Assembly: GCA_017502135.1 (NCBI GenBank)
Contig: JAFVVP010000005.1
Location: 116,811-180,810, forward strand
Direction of reading: 5' to 3'
DNA from: Clostridia bacterium
GTDB lineage: Bacteria > Bacillota > Clostridia > Oscillospirales > CAG-272
Length of the DNA stretch: 64,000 nucleotides
The translations under genes and the position numbers were made by a program. The notes beneath the pieces are model-generated. The model made no database searches, was not told the origin of the DNA, and saw only the letters and a program-made list of their open reading frames with translations. Shown piece after piece: positions 40,838-54,469 of this stretch (positions within the stretch are counted from its first letter, which is position 1; each line of letters opens with the position of its first letter).

Positions 40838-41638
40838 ATGAAACTGAAAAAATCTTTACTCATAGCATTCGTTATCTGCCTTACCGTGTGCGCAATAATG
40901 CCGCTCTCGGCACAAAGCATATCAACAAAACCGCTGAACTGGTACTGCCGCCACGAAAAAGACGGTAAGCAGCCTATGTGCGATTCGGAGATGCACTTCA
41001 TCGAGAAGTATGACGGATACTATATTGATACCAAAAACTGCGATCCGGCTGCTGCAGAAAAAGTAATCTACCTTACCTTTGATGTCGGGTATGAAAACGG
41101 AAATGTTGCAAAAATACTCGATACGCTTAAAGCCGAAGACGTCCCCGCAGCGTTTTTTGTTCTCGATCATCTTGTGAAAAGCGAGCCGCAGCTTGTAAAG
41201 CGTATGGCAAGCGAAGGACATCTCGTTTGCAATCACACCGCTTCGCACCGCGATATGACGAAAGTGCATTCAGCCGAAATATTCACGGCAGAACTCAAAA
41301 AACTGGAAGATTCCTGTGCTGAGATCGGTGTAACCACGGCGAAATACTACCGCCCGCCTGAAGGACGATTCTCGGAAGAAAATCTAAAATTTGCGATGGA
41401 CGCAGGATTCAAAACTGTATTTTGGAGTTTTGGATACGTCGACTGGGATAACGAACGTCAGATGGCACCCGATGATGCAATGACAAAAATATTTGACGGG
41501 CTTCACAACGGGGAAGTACTTCTTCTGCACCCCACCTCTGAAACAAATGCAAAAATTATGCCGGATCTGATCCGTGAACTTCGGGCACGCGGCTACCGTT
41601 TTGGGACGCTGGCCGAACTGACGCAAGCCGATAACTAA
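40838..41638 (+). CDS. PdaA-like peptidoglycan N-acetylmuramic acid deacetylase
   Basis: 266 residues with a cleavable signal peptide (to about residue 25, PLSAQS). The mature start (LNWYCRHEKDGKQP...KYDGYYID) is typical of the delta-lactam-forming PdaA family rather than general chitin deacetylases. NodB motifs: YLTFDVGYENG, where Val replaces the Asp or Asn that usually follows the first Asp; HTASHRDM (H-x3-H); and RPPEGRFSE. PdaA makes the muramic-delta-lactam of spore cortex in Bacillus. It is followed after 15 bases by a second deacetylase gene. Confidence 0.85.
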   Translation: MKLKKSLLIAFVICLTVCAIMPLSAQSISTKPLNWYCRHEKDGKQPMCDSEMHFIEKYDGYYIDTKNCDPAAAEKVIYLTFDVGYENGNVAKILDTLKAEDVPAAFFVLDHLVKSEPQLVKRMASEGHLVCNHTASHRDMTKVHSAEIFTAELKKLEDSCAEIGVTTAKYYRPPEGRFSEENLKFAMDAGFKTVFWSFGYVDWDNERQMAPDDAMTKIFDGLHNGEVLLLHPTSETNAKIMPDLIRELRARGYRFGTLAELTQADN

Positions 41639-41653
41639 AAAACGAAAGGAACG

Positions 41654-42364
41654 ATGCGTATGCGCCGCTGTGTTTCAGTATTTCTTCTCATTATTTTTTC
41701 CGTTCGCATAGCATCGATTACGGTTTCGGGAGTTTCATCGGCATCTGAGACGGAAAAAAGTGTTTATTCCTCGCACGACAACGAGAGCAGAAAAATCGCC
41801 ATCACCTTTGACGACGGTCCGCACCCGCGGTACACCGCCGAAATCCTCGACATTCTCGCTGAACATGGTGCCCATGCCACCTTTTTCATTATTGGAGATA
41901 ACGCTAAGAACTATCCCGATATCCTTTCACGTATCCAAAAAGAAGGACACGAGATCGGCAACCATACCTACTTGCATAGAAATCTCCAGAAAACGACACC
42001 GGACATTATCCGAAAACAAATACTGGATGCTGAACAGACCATTCTAGAACTAACCGATCAGAGAACAAAATTGCTTCGGCCGCCGGGCGGGTTGTACGAT
42101 CAGAAAGTATGTGACACAGCGCGTTCACTTGATTACGAAGTTATTCTTTGGACGATCGACACAAAAGACTGGACGCATCCAACCGTTGACGAGATCGTCG
42201 AGAAAGTAGAAGCAAATATCAAAACCGGCGACATTATCCTGTGCCACGATTTTATCGGCGGCGGATCAACGCCAACCCCGGATGCCCTAAGGCGGATCAT
42301 CCCCGATCTCACAAGGGAGGGGTACGAATTCGTTACCGTTTCCGAATTAATCCACTCAAAATAA
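41654..42364 (+). CDS. Secreted polysaccharide deacetylase (NodB/CE4)
   Basis: 236 residues with an N-terminal signal or anchor. All CE4 motifs are intact: ITFDDGPHPRYT with both Asp, HTYLHRNL (metal His pair), RPPGGLYD, DTKDWTHP and a terminal LCHDFIGGG with the catalytic His. It deacetylates GlcNAc-type residues in peptidoglycan or another surface glycan. It is probably co-transcribed with the PdaA-like gene, giving one canonical and one lactam-type deacetylase side by side. Confidence 0.9.
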   Translation: MRMRRCVSVFLLIIFSVRIASITVSGVSSASETEKSVYSSHDNESRKIAITFDDGPHPRYTAEILDILAEHGAHATFFIIGDNAKNYPDILSRIQKEGHEIGNHTYLHRNLQKTTPDIIRKQILDAEQTILELTDQRTKLLRPPGGLYDQKVCDTARSLDYEVILWTIDTKDWTHPTVDEIVEKVEANIKTGDIILCHDFIGGGSTPTPDALRRIIPDLTREGYEFVTVSELIHSK

Positions 42365-45643: not shown

Positions 45644-45684
45644 AAAAAGAACTGCGCAGGTTACAGCCTGCGCAGTTCTTTTTT
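45644..45684. terminator. Bidirectional terminator, DUF624 gene / PAP2
   Basis: AAGAACTGCGCAGG, TTACAG and CCTGCGCAGTTCTT form a perfect 14-bp stem flanked by A-runs and T6. It overlaps the PAP2 stop codon. Confidence 0.92.
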
Positions 45685-46249
45685 AAGTCAATTCATTTTG
45701 CGTAAATTTCTTCCATACAGCTTTTACAAACCACACAGCAAAGAATGCAAACAGCACGCCGAGGATTGCACCCACCAAAACGTCTGTGGGGTAGTGTACG
45801 TACAGATACAAGCGTGACAGCGCCACGAGAATTGCCGCAATCATCGCAGGGATACCGAGCCTCTTATCACGAATCAAAAGAACCGTAGCGCCCTCCAGAG
45901 AGGCGAGCGTATGGCCGGATGGAAAAGAGAAATCAGACAAGCGCTCAACAAGCAATGCGACATCCCGCATTTCGTTCGCATCGTACGGGCGGATCCTTCC
46001 GATAAGCGGCTTGAGCGTCATGTTGCCGACAAGGAATCCGCACAAAAGTGCCACGCCCATCATGGCGCCCGTTGCACGCGTTTTTTTGAAAACCAGCAGA
46101 ACGGCGGCAAGGATCATCCAAAAAAGGCCGTGATCGCCGAGTTTCGTAACGAGGGGGAAGAACCAGTCCAAAAACCCACACTGAAACACGTCCTGGATCC
46201 AGTCAAGAATACCAATCTCAAATTGATTCAACTGTTGAAAAAAAGTCAT
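45683..46249 (-). CDS. PAP2 family membrane phosphatase
   Basis: 188 residues from the ATG at 46249 (AAAGGAG upstream; the GTG two codons earlier is too close). Five or six helices carry the three PAP2 motifs: KPLIGRIRPYD, FPSGHTLASLEG and SRLYLYVHYPTDVLVG with the catalytic His residues. Homologues dephosphorylate undecaprenyl pyrophosphate or phosphatidic acid derivatives at the outer membrane face. It lies 10 bases after the partner gene of the first glycosidase-domain module, so recycling of the lipid carrier for a surface polymer is a fair inference. Confidence 0.9.
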   Translation of the reverse strand: MTFFQQLNQFEIGILDWIQDVFQCGFLDWFFPLVTKLGDHGLFWMILAAVLLVFKKTRATGAMMGVALLCGFLVGNMTLKPLIGRIRPYDANEMRDVALLVERLSDFSFPSGHTLASLEGATVLLIRDKRLGIPAMIAAILVALSRLYLYVHYPTDVLVGAILGVLFAFFAVWFVKAVWKKFTQNELT

Positions 46250-46259
46250 AGGCACTCCT

Positions 46260-47339
46260 TTAATGGTTATAACGGTCGTAAATCAAAAACGCATCGCCAA
46301 CACGGCGGAAGAAGAACGTAGTATCAATATAATCCTTGTAATCTTCCATGTTGGTGCGTTTCAAGACGTGCGTAAATGAAATACGACAGGAAAACGTATT
46401 TTCATCATATTGGTAAAATTCGGACGTACGGACATCTTCGAAATCATAGGAATTGTGCTTGATAACAAAATACGTAAGAGACGTTTTGAGATATTCGTAC
46501 AGCTCGCTTTCCGGATCAATATAACCGGAAACCGAATAAAACATGGCATCGTTTTGCATGTATTTGGATATCGCTTTAGCGGCATCTATGATATAGGCAT
46601 TGCGGTCTTCGGGAATAACTTCCTCATAGAGAACATCTGCTGTAAACACGGCACCCTCGGCGGTCACGGTACACTCTCTGCCATCGGGCGAAAGCACCGT
46701 CACCGAATCGGGCGGCAGGTACATATCATCAATTACATATTCTAAATAGACGATACCCTCAACGCCTTCCGGCATAAAGGAGCACGATTTATCCTTCGCC
46801 TCTTCTCCACTCAAAGCAGTATCAGGAACCTCCGCACCGTTTACAAGTACAGTGTAGCCTTTGGGGGCGGTAATACTGACCGTTTCATTTGCGGCACAGT
46901 AAAGTTCAAAATCGCTAACCTCGTACAGAGAAAACCCTTTTTCCGTCTTTTTGTCCGATTCTTTAAGCGTAAAAGCGGAAAATTTTATATTGTCAGCTTT
47001 TACAATGTACTTAACGGACGTATCAAGACCTGTGGTGATCTGGGAATATGTGAGTTCTTTGTCATCCGTGAAAGCCGTAAGATATCGGCAGAGCGTATCG
47101 GCCGTTTCATACTCCGTAAGCGGCACTTCGCACTGATCTACGAGCTTACCGAAATCGCCGGATGCGTAATATTCTGCAAACACACGCTCCGCCTCGTACT
47201 GCGGTCTCGCAGATTCGTAATCAGCAAGATACGTCTTAACAATACCGAGTCCTATGTGAATCAAAACAAGAACGAGCGCAATAAATATAAAATACACCGT
47301 GTAAAAAACAGGAAACCGTTTTGTCTTCTGCATCGTCAT
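46260..47339 (-). CDS. Single-pass extracellular protein, partner of glycosidase module A
   Basis: 359 residues. A basic start and one membrane helix (about 11-34) precede a juxtamembrane DYESARPQYEAERVFAEYY segment that is mirrored in the protein at 52397. A central beta-domain has YTVLVNGAEV near residue 165-180, matching one copy of the repeat present three times in that relative, and the C-terminal ~110 residues look like an NTF2-type domain (DAAKAISKYMQND to FLIYDRYNH). The start overlaps the stop of the glycosidase-domain gene by ATGA. Function is unknown; it is predicted to sit outside the cell next to that enzyme. Confidence 0.75.
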   Translation of the reverse strand: MTMQKTKRFPVFYTVYFIFIALVLVLIHIGLGIVKTYLADYESARPQYEAERVFAEYYASGDFGKLVDQCEVPLTEYETADTLCRYLTAFTDDKELTYSQITTGLDTSVKYIVKADNIKFSAFTLKESDKKTEKGFSLYEVSDFELYCAANETVSITAPKGYTVLVNGAEVPDTALSGEEAKDKSCSFMPEGVEGIVYLEYVIDDMYLPPDSVTVLSPDGRECTVTAEGAVFTADVLYEEVIPEDRNAYIIDAAKAISKYMQNDAMFYSVSGYIDPESELYEYLKTSLTYFVIKHNSYDFEDVRTSEFYQYDENTFSCRISFTHVLKRTNMEDYKDYIDTTFFFRRVGDAFLIYDRYNH

Positions 47340-48652
47340 CCCTCCACTTCAACCGTTTCGGGCGCAACCATAAAGAAAGTCGGCATCCGACGCGGCGTTG
47401 TAAACGCCTTGTATTTATTGACAAGGCCCTGGAGTTGATACTGATCAAGACGTTCGGGGTCTATATCATACTTGGTGTAATAATCCTCATAGTACATAAG
47501 GGAAGAAGATCCGCCGTCAAGCATTCCTGCCGTTACAGCGCCGTAGGACACCATAATATCTATGACGTCGTTGTGGGTAGCGCCAAGACTGCTGGCCGTT
47601 CTTCCGTCCGTTACGAGCAAGATGACCGCACCGTCCGCCCGCTGACCGATTGCCGTTCTTTGCGCGGTACCTGTATTACTGTCCGCGTAGTGGAGATGCA
47701 CGTTCGTTCCGTCGTGATCAATGAGGAGATTGCCGGTCTGGAACGAAACTGCATCGCGGATACCGAGTTTGTCCGCCTTTGCCCGTGTCATCCCTTCCGT
47801 TACGACAAGATTGTTGTCCTTGTCAAAACCAATAAAGGTTTTCCATGAATAGCCGTCATTCCAAACACAATCACCTTTGGAATAGGTTAGCCCCGTAGGA
47901 TTATCTCCCGTGCCGGTGCCGCCGATATCGGCAAACTCACCGCCGTTTATAATTGCAACCGCGCCTTCGCGCTCTGCCATCTCAAAGATGCGCGCGCCTG
48001 TTTTGCCGCTATTGTAATCGCTGGATGTGCCTACATAAAGTCGGGAAGGATCTTTAACAACAAGGACATATGCTTTATATGTAGAACCGCTGAGCGTGTG
48101 GAACAGCATACCGTCTTTTGCATCCGCCCATTCGTCAACGGGCTCCGTACCTTCGCCGTGCTGAGAGTCAGACGGCGTTTGGGAAGCTGCATATTCCTCG
48201 AGAGACATCACGTCGGTGCTTATTACCTTACTGTCGGCAAGGATCGCTTCCACCTCAGCATCCTCAAGAAAGAGTCCCGGTACCCATTTCGTAGCGCTTG
48301 CCTGCAGAGCAGACAACACCAGCAAATTGCGCACGGTAGGACTCGGTCCGTTGGCAACTGTGTTGCAGAACGCAAAAACAGCATATACCAAAAGTACTAC
48401 CAAAGTGAGTAAAATGAGCAGCGAGCGCCGCACTACACACCACATCGTCTTCTTGACAGATTTTTTCTCGGGAGCGAACGGTTCTCCGTGTTTACAAAGC
48501 GCTTTTGGCAACTGTTCGTTTTCGACAACTTGATCCATAGAGATGTTCCCCTTCATGGATTCATCGACAGAAAGTTTCTTTTTCCGTTTATTGGGATTAT
48601 ACACACCGGGCACATACGCACCGTGTTCAGAAAATGCTCTTTTTGGATTCAA
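47336..48652 (-). CDS. Membrane-anchored phosphodiester glycosidase-domain (NAGPA) protein, copy A
   Basis: 438 residues from a TTG at 48652 with AGAGGA eight bases upstream; an ATG at 48538 after AAGGGG is the alternative. A cytoplasmic tail of about 75 residues and one helix (77-96) precede NGPSPTVRNLLVLSALQASA, then a linker. The NAGPA domain follows, with AIINGGEFAD, TAIGQRADGAVILLVTDGR and a LDGGSSSLM motif. This family includes the human enzyme uncovering mannose-6-phosphate and bacterial exopolysaccharide proteins; hydrolysis of a sugar-1-phosphodiester is inferred. It follows the glycosyltransferase gene by 34 bases and overlaps its partner by ATGA. Confidence 0.85.
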   Translation of the reverse strand: MNPKRAFSEHGAYVPGVYNPNKRKKKLSVDESMKGNISMDQVVENEQLPKALCKHGEPFAPEKKSVKKTMWCVVRRSLLILLTLVVLLVYAVFAFCNTVANGPSPTVRNLLVLSALQASATKWVPGLFLEDAEVEAILADSKVISTDVMSLEEYAASQTPSDSQHGEGTEPVDEWADAKDGMLFHTLSGSTYKAYVLVVKDPSRLYVGTSSDYNSGKTGARIFEMAEREGAVAIINGGEFADIGGTGTGDNPTGLTYSKGDCVWNDGYSWKTFIGFDKDNNLVVTEGMTRAKADKLGIRDAVSFQTGNLLIDHDGTNVHLHYADSNTGTAQRTAIGQRADGAVILLVTDGRTASSLGATHNDVIDIMVSYGAVTAGMLDGGSSSLMYYEDYYTKYDIDPERLDQYQLQGLVNKYKAFTTPRRMPTFFMVAPETVEVEG

Positions 48653-48686
48653 AACAAATATCCTCTGTATTTCAAATAATAGCCGA

Positions 48687-49766
48687 TTATTTTTTCTCCG
48701 GTTCTTCGGCAAAAACCCATCCACGCTGTACGCGGAAGCTGAGCATAAACAGCACCGTATCCACGATCAGCTTGACAAACGTTTTAAGAAGGGCGAACTC
48801 TCCGCCGACCATATCGGTTATAAATGAGAAGATTCCCAAAACGCCGGCAGAAATAGCCATGAGCAAGAGTGCTAACAAATAGTAACGCTTAAGTGCGACC
48901 TTTGAAGAAACTCGGCTTTTGAAAACCGCCTTTTTATTCAAAGTGTAATTAAACAGCGATGAAACGATTCGTGCCATGATGCCATAGATCACGTCCGCCC
49001 ACGCGCCGAGTGCAATCAAGGAGAAGCGTGCCAACACATAATAGACACCAAGATCCACGATGGAGGAAAGCGCGGAACTGGAAACGAATTTCAGTATCAA
49101 TCCGTAGATGCGAATGGAATCGCGCACAGGGCGAAAATGGGACGTGCGGTTTTCTTCTATGTAAACGGTATGAATTCTCACTTCACTGTACTGAATATGA
49201 CGAGAGCTCATTTCAAGAAGCATGTTCGTCTCGTATTCGTAACGATCCCCCTCCACTTCGAGCATATCAGGCAAAAATTTTGCAGGAATGGCACGAAGAC
49301 CGGTCTGCGTGTCCGAGATATTAAGACCGCAGAAAAGGCGGAAAACCAAAGAGGTAATCCTGTTGCCGATACGGCTTCTCGGCGGCACGTGCGGCTCGGA
49401 GAAATCACGCACGCCGAGGATAACGGCGTGCCGATCGCACATCTCACGGGCACAGTCTAAAACATCCTCTGCAAGATGTTGTCCGTCTCCATCCACCGTT
49501 ATAACGCCCGCCGTTTGCCTGCCGGAATCAAGATAGTATCGAAAAGCCGTTTTCATGGCCGCGCCTTTTCCTCGGTTTATTTCATGGGTAAGGAGAGTAC
49601 ATCCCGGGGCATCAACGGGAAAGTTCGGAATAAACTCGGGAGCCGATCCATCATTTACAAGAATAATATCGTCAAATCCGACAGCTATAAGGTCACTGAC
49701 TGTTTTTCTCAGTTTTTCATCCGGATTTAAGGATGGAATAATTACGGTTACGTTTATACGTTCCAC
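48687..49766 (-). CDS. GT2 glycosyltransferase fused to a GtrA membrane domain
   Basis: 359 residues. Residues 1-225 are a DPM1-like GT2 domain: VTVIIPSLNPDEKL, LVNDGS, the DxD at D92/D94 in TVDGDGQH, and QTGLRAIP. Residues 230-350 hold four helices of the GtrA family, with the typical SSIVDLGVYYVL and RIVSSLFNYTLNKKAVF segments. GT2 enzymes of this type load a sugar on undecaprenyl phosphate and GtrA proteins help flip the product. The fusion suggests both steps in one polypeptide, for modification of a surface polymer. It lies 34 bases before module A and is flanked by CapA. Confidence 0.88.
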   Translation of the reverse strand: MERINVTVIIPSLNPDEKLRKTVSDLIAVGFDDIILVNDGSAPEFIPNFPVDAPGCTLLTHEINRGKGAAMKTAFRYYLDSGRQTAGVITVDGDGQHLAEDVLDCAREMCDRHAVILGVRDFSEPHVPPRSRIGNRITSLVFRLFCGLNISDTQTGLRAIPAKFLPDMLEVEGDRYEYETNMLLEMSSRHIQYSEVRIHTVYIEENRTSHFRPVRDSIRIYGLILKFVSSSALSSIVDLGVYYVLARFSLIALGAWADVIYGIMARIVSSLFNYTLNKKAVFKSRVSSKVALKRYYLLALLLMAISAGVLGIFSFITDMVGGEFALLKTFVKLIVDTVLFMLSFRVQRGWVFAEEPEKK

Positions 49767-49814
49767 AGTATCACTTCTTTCACAAAATTTATTCTAATAG
49801 TCGCCCGATCTCAA

Positions 49815-51095
49815 TTACGGTTCCCTCAAAAACTGAGGATCAATCGTAGCGGACAGATACTTTTTCAGTGTATCGAGAGAGAGGGAGTTACCGTAGTAGG
49901 AGATTCCATGCGAGTTTGCCATTTCCTCGGTAAAATCGCTCAGATAATACACCTGGTTCTGATAAAAAGATGTATCAAAATAGTAAACGGTCGGGATAAA
50001 AACAACGTTTTCAATAGCCGGAACCCCGTCTGTGAGTACCATATCAAAGGAAATCATTCCGCCGAGCATATTGTAATCTTTCGCCTGCTCTGCGGCAAAG
50101 TTACCAAGGGAATACACACAAAGCGTACGACCTCCGTCAGCGCGGTCGATCCATTCCACGGGCTGAATCACGTGCGGGTGATGGCCAATAATGGCGTCCG
50201 CTCCGTTATCAGCGAGAAGTCTCGAAAAATCTCGTTCGATCTGCGTGGGGGTAAAGGTATTTTCCGCATCCCAGTGAACCGAAACGATAACAAAATCGGC
50301 AAGTTCACGGGCGCGCGAAAGCTGCGTCATAGCGGTTTCGTCGTCAAAATAAGGAATAACCGTTTCCGATCCGTCGGGCAGGGAAAGATAGTTAGTAAAG
50401 AACGTATAGGAGAGAAAAGCAATACGCACGCCATTTCTTTCGATGATGCGAAGCGTGTCGTAATCGGTTTGATCTTTATAACCGCCGATTAGGGTAATAC
50501 CTTCGAGAGAATTCCAAAAATCAATGGTCGCGAGAAGACCGTTCTCGCCTTTATCAAGCATATGGTTGTTCGCAATATTCACGACATCAAAACCGGTCTC
50601 CTTGATATCGTATCCAAGATCCTGCGGGCCGTTGAAATGGGGATAATAAGAGAATTCATATCCCTCTCCGCACATAAGAGTCTCCTGATTCACGAAAGCG
50701 ATATCCGCAGAAGAAATGCGTTCGGAAACATTCTTGAAGAGCGGCGCAAAATTGTACGTGCGCCCTCCGGGGACTCCCTGTGATTTGGCATCGCGCACAT
50801 TTCCGTAGTATATAATAATATCGCCGACACCAACAAAAGATGCGGAGCGGATCTCCGGCTCGGGCGGCAGTGTTTCCGTCGTTTCCTGAGCAGAGGTTTC
50901 ATCGGTCACTTGGGGAACGAAGACATCCGTATCGGAGGGGGTGTCGAGTGTATCAGAAATTCCTTCCGTCATTGCCCTATCGGCAGTTTCAGCGGCGGGA
51001 CGGAAAATTGACTGTGTACAGGATGAAAAACTCAGCAAACTGAAAACGATAAAGGTACACAGCAGAAAAAGTCGGAAAGAAAAGAATTTTCTCAC
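49815..51095 (-). CDS. CapA/PgsA-type metallophosphatase-fold lipoprotein
   Basis: 426 residues from a GTG at 51095 with GGAGG just upstream. A hydrophobic signal ends in a lipobox-like FSSC at residues 23-26 and is followed by a Ser/Thr/Glu-rich linker. The CapA core carries FVGVGDIIIYYGN, NIANNHMLDKGENG, and IIGHHPHVIQPVEW, the metal-binding pattern of the calcineurin-like CapA family. CapA proteins take part in poly-gamma-glutamate or capsule production; no capB/capC ligase genes are here, so its substrate in this locus may be the same surface polymer handled by the glycosidase modules (inference). Confidence 0.88.
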   Translation of the reverse strand: MRKFFSFRLFLLCTFIVFSLLSFSSCTQSIFRPAAETADRAMTEGISDTLDTPSDTDVFVPQVTDETSAQETTETLPPEPEIRSASFVGVGDIIIYYGNVRDAKSQGVPGGRTYNFAPLFKNVSERISSADIAFVNQETLMCGEGYEFSYYPHFNGPQDLGYDIKETGFDVVNIANNHMLDKGENGLLATIDFWNSLEGITLIGGYKDQTDYDTLRIIERNGVRIAFLSYTFFTNYLSLPDGSETVIPYFDDETAMTQLSRARELADFVIVSVHWDAENTFTPTQIERDFSRLLADNGADAIIGHHPHVIQPVEWIDRADGGRTLCVYSLGNFAAEQAKDYNMLGGMISFDMVLTDGVPAIENVVFIPTVYYFDTSFYQNQVYYLSDFTEEMANSHGISYYGNSLSLDTLKKYLSATIDPQFLREP

Positions 51096-51168
51096 ACTGC
51101 CTCCAAAAAATAACGCAATTCTCCGAACAAACTCGGGATTGAACGCATATAAACACACATTATAGTTA

Positions 51169-51197
51169 ATGATACCATATTCATACATAAATTGCAA
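51169..51197 (-). promoter_or_regulatory. Promoter of the CapA gene
   Basis: TTGCAA, 17 bases, TATCAT on the minus strand, in the 222-base divergent gap; the rest of this gap is AT-rich with nothing else recognisable. Confidence 0.55.
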
Positions 51198-51239
51198 GAT
51201 TTCAACGAGAATTCATCGGCATTTCATTCAAAATATATC

Positions 51240-51268
51240 TTGCATTATTCTTAAAAATTCTATACAAT
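51240..51268 (+). promoter_or_regulatory. Promoter of module B
   Basis: TTGCAT, 17 bases, TACAAT, about 50 bases before the glycosidase-domain gene at 51318. Confidence 0.6.
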
Positions 51269-51317
51269 ATATATACACGACAAAATATTTCTTTTTCTTA
51301 CATAAAGGAGCAAATTC

Positions 51318-52397
51318 ATGAACAAAACCATGACCGTTATAGGGCGGGTAGCGGCGATTACGGGTGCCGTGCTCTTAATCCTATTAATCATGGCGTACAG
51401 TGTGATGTGGATCCTTGTAAACGGACCGTCACCTACCGCACGCAGACTGTTTGTTTTATCTGTAAAAGAAACGTCCGCAGGTGGATTCCTTGCCGATATA
51501 TACCTTGCCGATGAGGAGATTTCCGAAATACTCGGTTCGAACGGTGACGACACCCCCGAGGAGGCCGTAGACGTATCACTCATTCAGATTCCGAGCGAAA
51601 CGGATTCTTCCGTCCCCTCGGCTTCGGATTCCGAGAATGGCGAGATAACCGATCCAGGCAACGGATCTGAAGTGGGAAGTGCTGATTCCGGGGAAGCTGC
51701 TGCCAATGATGACGGAATTGAAATAATTGACATTGAAGGTTCTACCTACAACGGTAAACTGCTGATTATCTCTGATCCTAAACGCATATTTGTCGGTGTC
51801 CCTGACCGCTACGGAGCGGACGCATCCGGCCTCACGGTGGCAGCCATGATTGAAAAATACGACTGCATCGCAGGAACGAATGCCGGCGGATTCTACGATC
51901 CGAACGGCAACGGAACGGGCGGCATTCCCGACGGCATCGTTATATACGAAGGAAAAATTCTGTGGGGAAACCTCTATTCTTCCTACAATATCGCAGCGCT
52001 TGACCAAAACGGCATTTTGCACGTCGGAACTATGACCGGCCAACAGGCGATGGATCTCGGAATTGAATATGCGGCAAGTTACGGTCCCGCGCTTGTCATC
52101 AACGGAAAAGCATGTAACGAAAACAGAACTCTGGGTGGCGGACTAAATCCTCGAACGGTGATCGGACAGCGCGCAGACGGCGCAATTCTCCTTCTCGTCA
52201 TCAACGGCCGCTCCCTGAATAGCCTCGGCGCCACCTATGACGATCTCGTAGAGATCATGCTTTCCTACGATGCCGTAAATGCCACCAATCTCGACGGCGG
52301 CTCCTCTTCCATCATGATTATGGACGGCGAGTACTTGACAAGCAGTGCGTATATTTTCGGTGAAAGGGTAGTCGCAACGGCGATATTGGTGAAATAA
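51318..52397 (+). CDS. Membrane-anchored phosphodiester glycosidase-domain (NAGPA) protein, copy B
   Basis: 359 residues. One helix (about 9-33) is followed by NGPSPTARRLFVLSVKETSA, an acidic Ser/Asp/Glu-rich linker (about 75-135) and the NAGPA domain: IAGTNAGGFYDPNGNG, TVIGQRADGAILLLVINGR, SLGATYDDLVEIMLSYDA, and LDGGSSSIM near the end. It is related to copy A but has no long cytoplasmic tail. AAAGGAG precedes the ATG. Its stop overlaps the partner start (TAATG). Confidence 0.87.
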   Translation: MNKTMTVIGRVAAITGAVLLILLIMAYSVMWILVNGPSPTARRLFVLSVKETSAGGFLADIYLADEEISEILGSNGDDTPEEAVDVSLIQIPSETDSSVPSASDSENGEITDPGNGSEVGSADSGEAAANDDGIEIIDIEGSTYNGKLLIISDPKRIFVGVPDRYGADASGLTVAAMIEKYDCIAGTNAGGFYDPNGNGTGGIPDGIVIYEGKILWGNLYSSYNIAALDQNGILHVGTMTGQQAMDLGIEYAASYGPALVINGKACNENRTLGGGLNPRTVIGQRADGAILLLVINGRSLNSLGATYDDLVEIMLSYDAVNATNLDGGSSSIMIMDGEYLTSSAYIFGERVVATAILVK

Positions 52398-54046
52398 TGA
52401 AACTCTCACGCTTTTGGAAAATATACATCTTTTCTGTTGCCGCCGCACTCCTTGTGCTTATCGTTGGCCTCTCTGTTTTTTATGCCTTTATCGCTTCTTA
52501 CGAGAAGTCGCAGCCCGAATACGCAGCAAGCGAATACGCAACAACTTTAACCGACAATGTTTTTGCAGATATTCTTAAGGAAATCAACATGAGATCTGCC
52601 AGTGAATACGAAACGGGCGAACAGCTAAAAAAAGTCCTTCTTGACGCATTCGAAACCTTGAACGGCGATTTTTCCGTACGGAAAAATTACAAAAAGTATT
52701 CTTCCGATGCACCTGTTTTCAGTTTAACAAAAGATTCCGTCACCGTCGCTGATATATACCTCGAAAGCGCCGAAAACGGTCTTTTCGGCATGAAACGTTG
52801 GAAGATCGCTGACCTTCAAATCCTTACTGCGAACCTGATCCCAGCCCCTGAAGATTATACCTTCTACGCCCCTTCTGATGCCGTCCTTTCTGTAAATGGA
52901 ATCACGCTGTTGCCGGAAAATAAAAGCGATCAAGTCCCGTACAGGTTCACAAGCCCCTATGAGCCCGACTCCACGGCTTCATGGGATGTTTATACCGTCA
53001 CCCGCCTCTTTCAAAAACCAAATGTTACGTGCTCCCTGAATGGAGATGCGTGTTCTTTTGAAGAAAAGGAAAACACTTTCCTCATTAAATATCCACAAAC
53101 ACTCACAGCGACCTATTCGCTCACCGTACCGAACGAGGCTCTTGTTACCATAAACGGTGTGACATTGAAGCCCGAGCACATCACAAACGCAAGTATTCCT
53201 TATGAGTATTCGCCGCTCGAAGCCACGCTTTCAGGATTACCGTACGCCGTTACCTATACCATATCCGACTTGTTCCACGAGCCGGATCTCCAAGGCGTGC
53301 TGCGCGGAACATCTCTTGAATTCACCTTAGAGGAAGACACGTATACCGCCGCATATCCCCAATCTATGCTCTATGCCTGCACTATTCGCGTCCCCGTCGG
53401 CAGTGAAGTTTTCCTCCGCGGCATGCCGTGTAACGAATACTTCACCGAACAAATGACCGGCTATGACGCGCTTTCAGCGCACATAAAGTCTCTTCCTATG
53501 TTCGATGTCTATACGTTACCCGCGTTATATATTTCGCCGGCTGACGAAATAACCGTTATGCTGAACGGAGAATCGCTTGCGGTAAGATCCGAGACTACGG
53601 ACATATTCCATATCGTATCAACATCAGCTTTCCCGAAAGCCGAAAACGAGACAGTCGCCGAACAAGCGCTTGTTTTCCTCCGTGATTACATCACATATAC
53701 CGGGGAAGGGTACAAGAATCTCGACACCAACCTATACCGAGTGCTGGCGCACGTAATTCCAAACACAGAAACCTATTTGCGCATCGCCAATTCTCGCATC
53801 GGTATCTACTATGTAACACCGGTCAATCATAACGATTACAAGAGACAGGAGATTACTTCGATAACCAGATATGCCGATGATATGTATGGATGTACCGTTT
53901 CGTTCGAAGTTATTCAAAAAACGTACTACATCCAAAACGGAGAAAACGCTTGCCTCGAAAATGATTTTGTAGGCGAAATGCACCTTATCTATATCCACCA
54001 AAACGGCGTATGGAAAGTTGCTGATATGCAGATAGATTCTAAATAG
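52397..54046 (+). CDS. Single-pass extracellular protein with three internal repeats, partner of module B
   Basis: 549 residues. One helix (about 10-33) and a juxtamembrane SYEKSQPEYAASEY precede a helical region. Residues about 153-400 contain three diverged repeats of roughly 86 residues. Recurring elements are VxxNGxxLxPE (SVNGITLLPE, TINGVTLKPE), VYTxxxLF-x-P/E-P (VYTVTRLFQKPN, TYTISDLFHEPD) and YPQ-x-L/M (KYPQTLTATY, AYPQSMLYAC). The last ~130 residues look like an NTF2-type domain ending WKVADMQIDSK. It is translationally coupled to the glycosidase-domain gene. Function is unknown; surface binding or scaffolding is the simplest reading. Confidence 0.77.
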   Translation: MKLSRFWKIYIFSVAAALLVLIVGLSVFYAFIASYEKSQPEYAASEYATTLTDNVFADILKEINMRSASEYETGEQLKKVLLDAFETLNGDFSVRKNYKKYSSDAPVFSLTKDSVTVADIYLESAENGLFGMKRWKIADLQILTANLIPAPEDYTFYAPSDAVLSVNGITLLPENKSDQVPYRFTSPYEPDSTASWDVYTVTRLFQKPNVTCSLNGDACSFEEKENTFLIKYPQTLTATYSLTVPNEALVTINGVTLKPEHITNASIPYEYSPLEATLSGLPYAVTYTISDLFHEPDLQGVLRGTSLEFTLEEDTYTAAYPQSMLYACTIRVPVGSEVFLRGMPCNEYFTEQMTGYDALSAHIKSLPMFDVYTLPALYISPADEITVMLNGESLAVRSETTDIFHIVSTSAFPKAENETVAEQALVFLRDYITYTGEGYKNLDTNLYRVLAHVIPNTETYLRIANSRIGIYYVTPVNHNDYKRQEITSITRYADDMYGCTVSFEVIQKTYYIQNGENACLENDFVGEMHLIYIHQNGVWKVADMQIDSK

Positions 54047-54148: not shown

Positions 54149-54469
54149 ATGAAAGAGAACACTTCAGGCGAGTGGTTCGCCGACATTGAAATCGCAGACA
54201 AAGAACGGTGTGTGCGCCTGGCAGAATACCTAATCGAGCACAAAGCCACCGTACGCGCCACCGCAAAGCATTTCGGTATCAGTAAATCAACTGTACATAA
54301 AGATCTGGCTGAGAAGCTGCCACACGCTAACGCAGTACTGTACCAAGAAGCAAAAGCGATCCTCGCGATCAATAAGGCAGAAAGGCACCTGCGTGGCGGT
54401 CAAGCAACAAAAATCAAATACAAAACACTCAAAAACATAAAGCGAGGAAAATTTGACCTAACCCGTTAG
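54149..54469 (+). CDS. spoIIID: Sporulation transcriptional regulator SpoIIID
   Basis: 106 residues, slightly longer than the Bacillus protein (about 93). The HTH VRATAKHFGISKSTVHKDLAEKLP and the basic C-terminal RHLRGGQATKIKYK are almost diagnostic, each given in part. SpoIIID modulates mother-cell gene expression between the sigma-E and sigma-K phases. The usual neighbours spoIIQ and mbl are absent. GGAG lies before the ATG. Confidence 0.96.
   Translation: MKENTSGEWFADIEIADKERCVRLAEYLIEHKATVRATAKHFGISKSTVHKDLAEKLPHANAVLYQEAKAILAINKAERHLRGGQATKIKYKTLKNIKRGKFDLTR

Follow-up and report, generated by a model that had tools for sequence, protein, structure and literature searches.

What do two membrane-anchored phosphodiester glycosidases do at the surface of a gut Clostridia cell, and why does each of their genes run into that of a second surface protein? 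The 64,000-nucleotide stretch analysed here (the window), from a genome of 1.14 Mb that is 64.6% complete, contains two NAGPA-domain genes, each overlapping the start of a gene for a single-pass partner (Table 1). The first-pass annotation had described this layout, and both the Pfam matches and the overlap coordinates agree with it. NAGPA-1 and NAGPA-2 score 111.3 and 124.3 bits against PF09992 (cut-off 25) and are the only two matches to this family in their incomplete genome; the overlaps read ATGA (47336-47339, minus strand) between NAGPA-1 and partner A, and TAATG (52395-52399) between NAGPA-2 and partner B. Partner A may start at a second in-frame ATG, six bases on and better placed behind GGAGGG, and the two genes are tightly coupled whichever ATG is used. 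The identities assigned earlier to the neighbouring genes also held, as the GT2, GtrA, PGA_cap/CapA and PAP2 domains all pass their Pfam cut-offs. Among NCBIfam models, the GT2-GtrA fusion matched AglJ (E 3e-19) and PpgS (E 2e-17) and the PAP2 protein matched SepP (E 2.7e-26), all under cut-off, and comparison with PHROGs gave weak or unnamed families only. The first start codon of the CapA open reading frame lies far upstream of the real start, which is probably a GTG near 51095. The hairpin at the PAP2 end has the longest stem among 13 terminator-like sites (10.1 expected), and a promoter scan returned 9 sites against 12.2 expected, so promoters were not used.

Table 1 Features of the two NAGPA modules and their neighbours in the window.
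Feature	Coordinates	Strand	Evidence and position
Intrinsic-terminator-like hairpin, 17 pairs	45644..45683	-	After PAP2
PAP2 phosphatase, undecaprenyl-diphosphatase type	45683..46255	-	PF01569 E 2.9e-21; last gene of minus-strand run
Partner A: TM, juxtamembrane YExxxP segment, domain 1, one NG beta-repeat, NTF2-like C-terminus (sub-threshold)	46260..47339	-	
NAGPA-1: N-terminal TM and extracytoplasmic phosphodiester glycosidase domain	47336..48652	-	PF09992 E 7.5e-32
GT2-GtrA fusion (GT2 of polyprenyl-phosphate sugar synthase type and flippase-like domain)	48687..49766	-	PF00535 E 2.2e-12, PF04138 E 2.7e-8
CapA/PGA_cap metallophosphatase-like lipoprotein	49815..51197	-	PF09587 E 5.1e-61; first gene of minus-strand run
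NAGPA-2: N-terminal TM and phosphodiester glycosidase domain	51318..52397	+	PF09992 E 7.7e-36; divergent from capA run
Partner B: TM, juxtamembrane segment, domain 1, several NG-type beta-repeats, C-terminal domain	52397..54046	+	

Searches made with the partner sequence alone found a NAGPA gene adjoining the partner in 37 of 37 genome-contig loci, at 22 of 23 places in 59 genomes and in 28 of 29 class-wide loci; partners are thus not mostly found apart from the enzyme. Together with the homology between the two window partners and the agreement of enzyme and partner pairwise distances (Mantel r 0.77, a value reached in none of 2000 permutations), these counts strongly support the pair proposed earlier, an enzyme and a dedicated partner that are inherited together. 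The enzyme comes first in 78 of 84 non-redundant pairs, 72 of which overlap or lie at most 30 bases apart; genes at the loci were called by a scan of all open reading frames, and because frames were taken from their first start codon the overlaps are upper estimates. Seven loci that duplicate relatives' contigs (L130-L133, L141, L148 and L156) are left out of the 76-locus, 84-pair and tree counts and remain within the 37. We found no published description of such a pair in the literature searched.

The NAGPA family occurs in 42 of the 59 genomes, at 112 sites, 64 of which were examined besides the window's two. The other 46 lie mostly in long frames, and no partner was seen beside them by single-sequence searches, which elsewhere missed four partners (L078, L106, L108 and L114) that the partner model found. 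Twelve more class-wide regions were examined for weak or second matches: two are further NAGPA-partner pairs (L226, L227), two are places already counted (L230, L231), and two match the partner model without a NAGPA gene (L228, the same place as L196, and L220, on a contig of just 4.4 kb). Five (L221, L222, L224, L225 and L229) gave no partner-model match at E 1e-3 and were taken as chance, as was L223 (E 1e-4), a DUF5711 protein. Single loci also depart from the rule, with an internal stop within the match in one partner (G015:C169) and a partner kept beside a NAGPA of 124 residues only in G012.

Most paired enzymes retain the conserved motifs of their family. Their profile aligns with the solved structures 6ozd, 6pku, 6pky and 6u11 at NGGxF, RTAIG and LDGGxS, which are found in both window enzymes and, across the 84 pairs, in 79, 80 and 75 members, respectively. 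The last motif, as the pattern was written, is therefore missing from nine, and one of these (L126, LDSTSS) clearly lacks the DGG. A hydropathy test places a hydrophobic N-terminal segment in 80/84 enzymes and 82/84 partners. In a tree of 121 NAGPA rows (at least 250 residues and E of at most 1e-9, so that of the 84 pairs the one with the L122 remnant is not in it), a single group of 84 rows takes in every one of the 83 paired rows. Its support is 83, below the starred level, and its only unpaired row ends at a contig end.

The locus had been read as a duplicated two-gene module; the two homologous copies stand, and a recent duplication does not. NAGPA-1, which sits in a 31-row subclade, and NAGPA-2 are 34% identical and occupy different old parts of the tree, and this argues against a recent event. 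Two copies in G013, which belongs to another genus, are closer to NAGPA-2 (53% and 50% identity) than NAGPA-1 is. By these comparisons the modules are ancient paralogs. The same divergent layout is seen in three further genomes of the genus, and in G033 as far as a contig end, and is therefore more than chance. Tandem duplication of the module is seen elsewhere (L157, L158, L159 and L161).

Homology between partners A and B, on which the earlier reading depended, is detectable in two places, the transmembrane and juxtamembrane segment at E 4e-7 and a stretch close to the C-terminus at E 3e-5. Of the juxtamembrane motif attributed to both, YExxxPxY is shared and the YEAxxx continuation belongs to partner A only. 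The proposed NTF2-like C-terminus is backed only by TcaA_5th matches below threshold, seen in 5 of the 33 partner homologues scanned, the best at E 0.0037. In Pfam, partners A and B show no TcaA match above cut-off and no zinc ribbon, nor is a zinc ribbon listed among the 33 homologues. Direct comparisons with the TcaA family, by Pfam on the 33 members, by PF22819 and by hhalign, gave nothing significant alone: PF22819 matched in 1 of 59 and 3 of 149 genomes, and hhalign of the partner against two of these four matches, those other than L167 and L197, gave E 0.003 (probability 10%) and E 0.065. The link is indirect. In hhalign the partner aligns over most of its length with the NAGPA-less single-pass proteins of L220 and L228 (E 7e-11 and 1e-12, probability 97%), one of which has a zinc ribbon and both of which have sub-threshold TcaA_2nd matches. 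These profile comparisons point to a distant kinship of the partner with TcaA-like proteins, whose zinc ribbon it lacks. No solved structure matched it significantly (best E 0.12). A C186-C318 disulfide was discarded as a general feature, with C318 present in 32 of 33 partners and C186 in just 19.

Neighbouring genes point to a pathway. Of 76 module loci, 33 contain a match to the GT2-GtrA model, and the flanks of the other 43, some of them short, contain none; PAP2, a frequent but optional neighbour, occurs in 24, the CapA model in 18 and a PIG-L-type (GlcNAc de-N-acetylase) gene in ten. The association of GT2-GtrA with NAGPA noted earlier proved real and specific to fused-length frames: a NAGPA gene is found within 6 kb for 16 of the 22 GtrA frames that reach 340 residues, versus 1 of 62 shorter ones (p 1.8e-11). 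Fusion is defined here by frame length alone; one of the 16 (G054:C37) is under the Pfam GtrA cut-off, and two loci that match the GT2-GtrA model without a GtrA match (L121, L124) were not counted. Long GtrA frames occur in 14 of 19 module genomes versus 8 of 40 others (p 1.2e-4) and, within the window's family alone, in 12 of 15 versus 5 of 21 (p 0.002). Five NAGPAs outside the paired group also adjoin a PF04138 frame of fusion length (L087, L089, L093, L110 and L123). Five small transmembrane proteins beside some NAGPAs have no Pfam family above cut-off, and at least one of 25 neighbour clusters, mostly unnamed, reads like an ABC transporter ATPase.

Since the pair often lies beside genes for the synthesis and export of lipid-linked sugars, these sugars may be what it processes, on the outer side of the cell membrane. 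The best explanation as a whole, to which we give a probability of roughly 0.4, is a paired phosphodiester glycosidase of the membrane surface for GtrA-flipped polyprenyl-phosphate sugars, with the substrate and the role of the partner inferred. The GT2 domain would make a polyprenyl-phosphate-linked sugar and the GtrA domain would flip it out; this sugar is the most likely candidate for the substrate, a sugar-1-phosphodiester near the membrane. By cutting the sugar-phosphate bond the enzyme could release undecaprenyl phosphate where the carrier is unused or at a dead end, or recover the sugar; PAP2 would convert any carrier in the diphosphate form back to the monophosphate. The partner may be a TcaA-like ectodomain protein that no longer has its cytoplasmic zinc ribbon and has taken on the task of holding or positioning the enzyme at the outer face. 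Module A (capA-gt2gtrA-nagpa1-partA-pap2) and module B (nagpa2-partB) might serve different sugars or acceptors. Against this mechanism, YfhO, usually the acceptor transferase, is present in 17 of 19 module genomes versus 23 of 40 others (p 0.017; no enrichment within the window's family, 13/15 versus 16/21), and in the window genome at G000:C1:199111, 28 kb from the module, so that the UndP-sugar may simply be spent on polymer.

It is doubtful that the pair instead trims or releases a wall polymer at a sugar-1-phosphate bond, for example a teichoic-acid-like GlcNAc-1-phosphate-6-MurNAc linkage, with the TcaA-like partner presenting the polymer. Chemically, that linkage falls in the same class as the GlcNAc-1-P-6-mannose of the animal enzyme, and LCP ligases and TagA/WecG are found in 18 and 15 of the 19 module genomes, respectively. 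Moreover, the part of the S. aureus study available to us describes an effect of TcaA on the ligation or retention of wall teichoic acid (PMC10328498). However, four module genomes have no TagA/WecG match (G015, G049, G054 and G058), and G054, 99% complete and also without an LCP match, keeps partner, NAGPA, GT2-GtrA and PAP2 together. Neither LCP nor TagA/WecG shows enrichment in module genomes (p 0.25 and 1.0), and a comparison of positions by eye places an LCP match on a module's contig only in the window genome, ~140 kb away. A wall-teichoic-acid linkage as obligatory substrate is weakened accordingly.

The absence of a recognised GT-C-type gene among the window module genes, where GT2-GtrA adjoins, would also suit a NAGPA that replaces the GT-C of GT-A/GtrA/GT-C systems and transfers the flipped polyprenyl-phosphate sugar to an acceptor, either a polymer or the partner. 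PIG-L, GtrA and NAGPA lie in one run at L109 and L112; yet YfhO is encoded elsewhere in most module genomes, and we know of no transfer activity for the NAGPA fold, which makes this improbable. The partner could fill the role of the second, acceptor-binding protein that smaller GT-C enzymes may need, a speculation in the portion of a review available to us (PMC8035078). A scavenging role in the gut, in which the enzymes would act on phosphodiester-linked sugars of dietary, fungal or host origin and have nothing to do with the lipid-linked sugars that the cell itself makes, appears more improbable still. A herbivore host is named for 16 of the 37 partner-search records, several more of which (RUG, SIG) are presumably ruminant metagenome-assembled genomes, and NAGPA domains also occur in the same genomes within open frames of 700-2800 residues. 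Against it stand the hydrophobic N-terminal segments of nearly all enzymes and partners, the commonest neighbours tested (GT2-GtrA, PAP2 and CapA), and the lack of any sugar-uptake or glycan-degrading gene among the five further neighbour clusters scanned with Pfam.

Almost nothing on the role of bacterial NAGPA-family enzymes is in print in the literature searched. The partner gene marks one enzyme subfamily and the GT2-GtrA fusion marks a pathway. With these two markers an orphan family acquires a hypothesis that can be tested, namely that it processes undecaprenyl-phosphate-linked sugars outside the cytoplasm. If true, the carrier lipid common to wall polymers would have an extra control point, and relatives tied to a defined enzyme are gained for the TcaA-like ectodomain proteins, whose part in wall teichoic acid is still without explanation. 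Tentatively, and at less than even odds, we propose an undescribed outer-leaflet complex of NAGPA and a TcaA-derived partner, spread across Clostridia, which would take polyprenyl-phosphate sugars flipped by GtrA and either cut off or transfer the sugar, as an extracytoplasmic counterpart of UshA or an end enzyme that is not a GT-C.

Known systems resemble the pair in parts. The window enzymes share domain and motifs with solved members of the NAGPA/uncovering enzyme family (PF09992, DUF2233; 6pku, 6pky, 3ohg, 6ozd) but differ in their transmembrane anchor and constantly adjoining partner gene. NAGPA-TelC surface proteins of spore-forming Bacillota likewise place NAGPA in secreted proteins, although, in the portion of that report available, as one large multidomain protein rather than a two-gene membrane pair (PMC12419801). 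TcaA and YvbJ-like zinc-ribbon proteins (PF22813, PF22819) have the same order of transmembrane segment, domain 1, beta-repeat and C-terminal domain, whereas the partners have no zinc ribbon and are adjoined by NAGPA at nearly all loci examined. The multi-component transmembrane glycosylation systems CsbB-GtcA-YfhO and GtrB-GtrA-GtrX have the GT-A and GtrA functions in common with the window locus, where these are fused and NAGPA and partner are found instead of a recognised GT-C. According to the part available of a B. subtilis study, the carrier becomes trapped in cells lacking YfhO as UndP-GlcNAc, which CsbB makes and GtcA flips, and the authors propose that UshA releases this carrier on the cytoplasmic face, an activity that they call undemonstrated (PMC11898649). 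UshA and UpsH share with the window enzymes the proposed task of freeing undecaprenyl phosphate; they resemble alpha/beta hydrolases and metallophosphoesterases, respectively, and are placed on the cytoplasmic face (PMC11898649, same part), whereas the window enzymes, PF09992 proteins with an N-terminal hydrophobic segment and not UshA-type alpha/beta hydrolases, would act outside.

Whether the NAGPA (PF09992) enzyme and its single-pass membrane partner form a real pair has to be tested from the partner's side. Searches with partner A and partner B across 59 genomes, including the window's, found 23 distinct partner places, of which 22 adjoin a NAGPA gene and the remaining one (G049:C82) is truncated at a contig end. 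A scan of a contig collection with peptide patterns drawn from the partners alone returned 37 loci, 7 of them on contigs already among the relatives, and NAGPA lies directly upstream on the same strand in all 37, with a widest gap of 173 bases (L151). Across the class, a wide partner profile matched 35 of 391 genomes, counting the window's own, and NAGPA sits beside the partner in 28 of the 29 loci returned beyond the window; the exception is L196/L228, NAGPA-less kin, and L220 is a further NAGPA-less match. Weaker class-wide matches gave two more pairs (L226 and L227). These partner-based searches bear out the proposal of the first-pass annotation that the partners are coupled to NAGPA genes. 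Among 84 non-redundant pairs, the enzyme comes first in 78 and the partner in 6; 32 of the enzyme-first pairs overlap as ORFs, 40 are spaced by 0–30 bases and 6 are wider. Enzyme and partner distances are correlated (Mantel r 0.77; highest of 2000 permutations, 0.12), which fits co-inheritance of the two proteins, with shared species history still contained in the figure.

The minus strand of the window carries a compact run of a CapA-like lipoprotein, a fusion of glycosyltransferase and flippase-like protein (GT2-GtrA), NAGPA-1, partner A and PAP2, in which the first two intergenic gaps measure 48 and 34 bases, NAGPA-1 and partner A overlap by 4 bases, and 4 bases separate partner A from PAP2. 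The plus strand carries NAGPA-2 and partner B in the divergent direction, with a single base shared between their frames. Three further genomes of the window's genus (G002, G003 and G004) have the same order, PAP2, partner A, NAGPA-1, GT2-GtrA, CapA and then NAGPA-2 and partner B in divergent orientation, and G033 of the window's family has it as far as a contig end inside NAGPA-2; searches with both partners found no partner in G001, of the same genus (83% complete). In the window spoIIID comes after partner B, and one cluster of spoIIID-like genes has members in four module loci. Two genes of the window that lie side by side (the first two in the table) resemble secreted polysaccharide deacetylases by their motifs, and similar neighbours occur in L088.

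Coordinates of features in the window and in related loci (L) and genomes (G)
Record	Position	Strand	Feature
Window	40838-41638		Neighbouring gene
Window	41654-42364		Neighbouring gene
Window	45644-45683		Terminator-like hairpin, 17 pairs, after PAP2 of the minus-strand run
Window	46260-47339	-	Partner A
Window	47336-48652	-	NAGPA-1
Window	51318-52397	+	NAGPA-2
Window	52397-54046	+	Partner B
Window	54149-54469		spoIIID, after partner B
L112	5995-11192		Run of overlapping genes
L122	5411-6390		CapA continuous with NAGPA remnant
L126	5137-6573		Paired NAGPA with LDSTSS
L157	5742-10405		Tandem array
L158	451-5186		Tandem array
L159	3276-8152		Tandem array
L161	5568-10638		Tandem array
L220	1333-2598		NAGPA-less profile match
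L228	5369-6559		NAGPA-less profile match
G002:C7	3362		NAGPA domain in long frame
G007:C32	131557		NAGPA domain in long frame

PF09992 occurs at 112 sites in the 59 genomes, all but 46 of which were retrieved; partners accompany at least 26 of the sites, namely the window's two and 24 others. A quick tree built from 121 NAGPA sequences, with support values from SH-aLRT alone, places every one of the 83 paired rows in one 84-row group (support 83, not starred), whose sole unpaired row, L102_7307, stops at a contig end; the partner therefore marks one NAGPA subfamily. NAGPA-1 falls in a clade of 31 rows (support 100) and NAGPA-2 lies elsewhere in the paired group, so the two window copies are old paralogs with different partner types. 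The module is present in two copies, as first annotated, and the duplication is not recent. Both copies are standard NAGPA domains. A 23-sequence profile matched the NAGPA structures 6pku and 6pky (E 3e-13) and a putative exported protein, 6ozd (1e-18); NGGxF, RTAIG and LDGGxS align between the profile and these structures and are retained by pattern in 79, 80 and 75 of the 84 paired enzymes. By a hydropathy test, 80 of the 84 enzymes and 82 of the 84 partners have a hydrophobic stretch at the N-terminus.

Variants of the module were also observed. Four Clostridia records carry tandem NAGPA-partner-NAGPA-partner arrays, in which the module is duplicated again in another lineage. The paired NAGPA of L126, with LDSTSS in place of LDGGSS and a long end branch, is probably inactive, and its partner gene is retained. 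In L122 (on a contig shared with L141), a 202-aa CapA is continuous with what remains of NAGPA, 124 residues, next to a partner of full length; the GT2-GtrA between CapA and NAGPA has apparently been lost, through either a deletion or an assembly join. Relatives also encode NAGPA domains within 700–2800-residue open frames, which may be large surface proteins like those reported in PMC12419801.

The partners, whose domains were named from reading alignments, have a transmembrane segment followed by a juxtamembrane stretch with YExxxP, then domain 1 and between one and several NG beta-repeats, with another domain at the C-terminus. Neither window partner matched a Pfam family above cut-off; the commonest weak match among partners is TcaA_5th, an NTF2-like domain, with matches in 5 of the 33 members scanned and a best E of 0.0037. 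The NAGPA-less proteins L220 and L228 each have a weak TcaA_2nd match, and they differ in that a zinc ribbon (E 3.7e-8) stands at the start of L220, and L228 has a weak PEGA match. Because hhalign also aligns both with the partner profile over most of their length (E 7e-11 and 1e-12, respectively), we infer that the partners are TcaA-like proteins that have lost the zinc ribbon and become bound up with NAGPA. L220 and L228 are followed by genes with zinc-ribbon-like N-termini, the one after L228 encoding a Yip1-domain protein; these surroundings are a possible ancestral TcaA-like cluster. In Staphylococcus aureus, TcaA influences wall teichoic acid ligation or retention (PMC10328498).

Across 76 distinct module loci, the GT2-GtrA model matched in 33 (a few weakly), PAP2 in 24 and CapA in 18. 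GtrA frames of at least 340 residues, our proxy for the fusion, lie within 6 kb of NAGPA in 16 of 22 cases, versus 1 of 62 shorter frames (p 1.8e-11), the lone short one sitting in the G018 module itself; GtrA alone is therefore not the signal. By genome, long frames occur in 14 of 19 module genomes versus 8 of 40 others (p 1.2e-4); for the window's family alone the figures are 12 of 15 versus 5 of 21 (p 0.002). Unpaired NAGPAs also adjoin a long frame (L087, L089, L093, L110 and L123). A gene cluster reading as PIG-L is found in ten of the 76 loci, in three of them opposite in strand to the nearest module gene; of its scanned members, L112 and L203 are above the Pfam cut-off for PIG-L and L213 is just below. 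L112 joins PIG-L, GT2-GtrA, partner and NAGPA in a single overlapping run, and L109 has PIG-L and a short GtrA frame ahead of NAGPA, partner and PAP2.

A polyprenyl-phosphate sugar is a sugar-1-phosphodiester, the bond type cut by the NAGPA family. GtrB- and GtrA-kind proteins make and flip such sugars (PMC8035078, PMC7117936). Because this product carries the NAGPA-family bond type, we propose that the NAGPA-partner pair would act at the outer leaflet on GtrA-flipped polyprenyl-phosphate sugar. PMC11898649 reports that Bacillus subtilis requires UshA when UndP-GlcNAc is trapped without YfhO, and proposes that UshA acts at the inner leaflet. Against our proposal, the GT2-GtrA model has no match in the examined flanks of 43 of the 76 module loci, and 17 of the 19 module genomes have YfhO, which gives the sugar another outlet. 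Wall-teichoic-acid linkage would be a possible alternative substrate: TagA/WecG and LCP are common in module genomes, without enrichment. In G054 (99% complete), partner, NAGPA, GT2-GtrA and PAP2 occur together and neither TagA nor LCP has a match, which argues against this linkage as the only substrate.

Among the matches listed for NAGPA, DUF2233, uncovering enzyme and GtrA, mostly open papers, none describes a NAGPA-partner pair. We judge the combination to be undescribed as far as found, and to be assembled from known elements: the enzyme family, the GtrA pathway and a TcaA-like protein.
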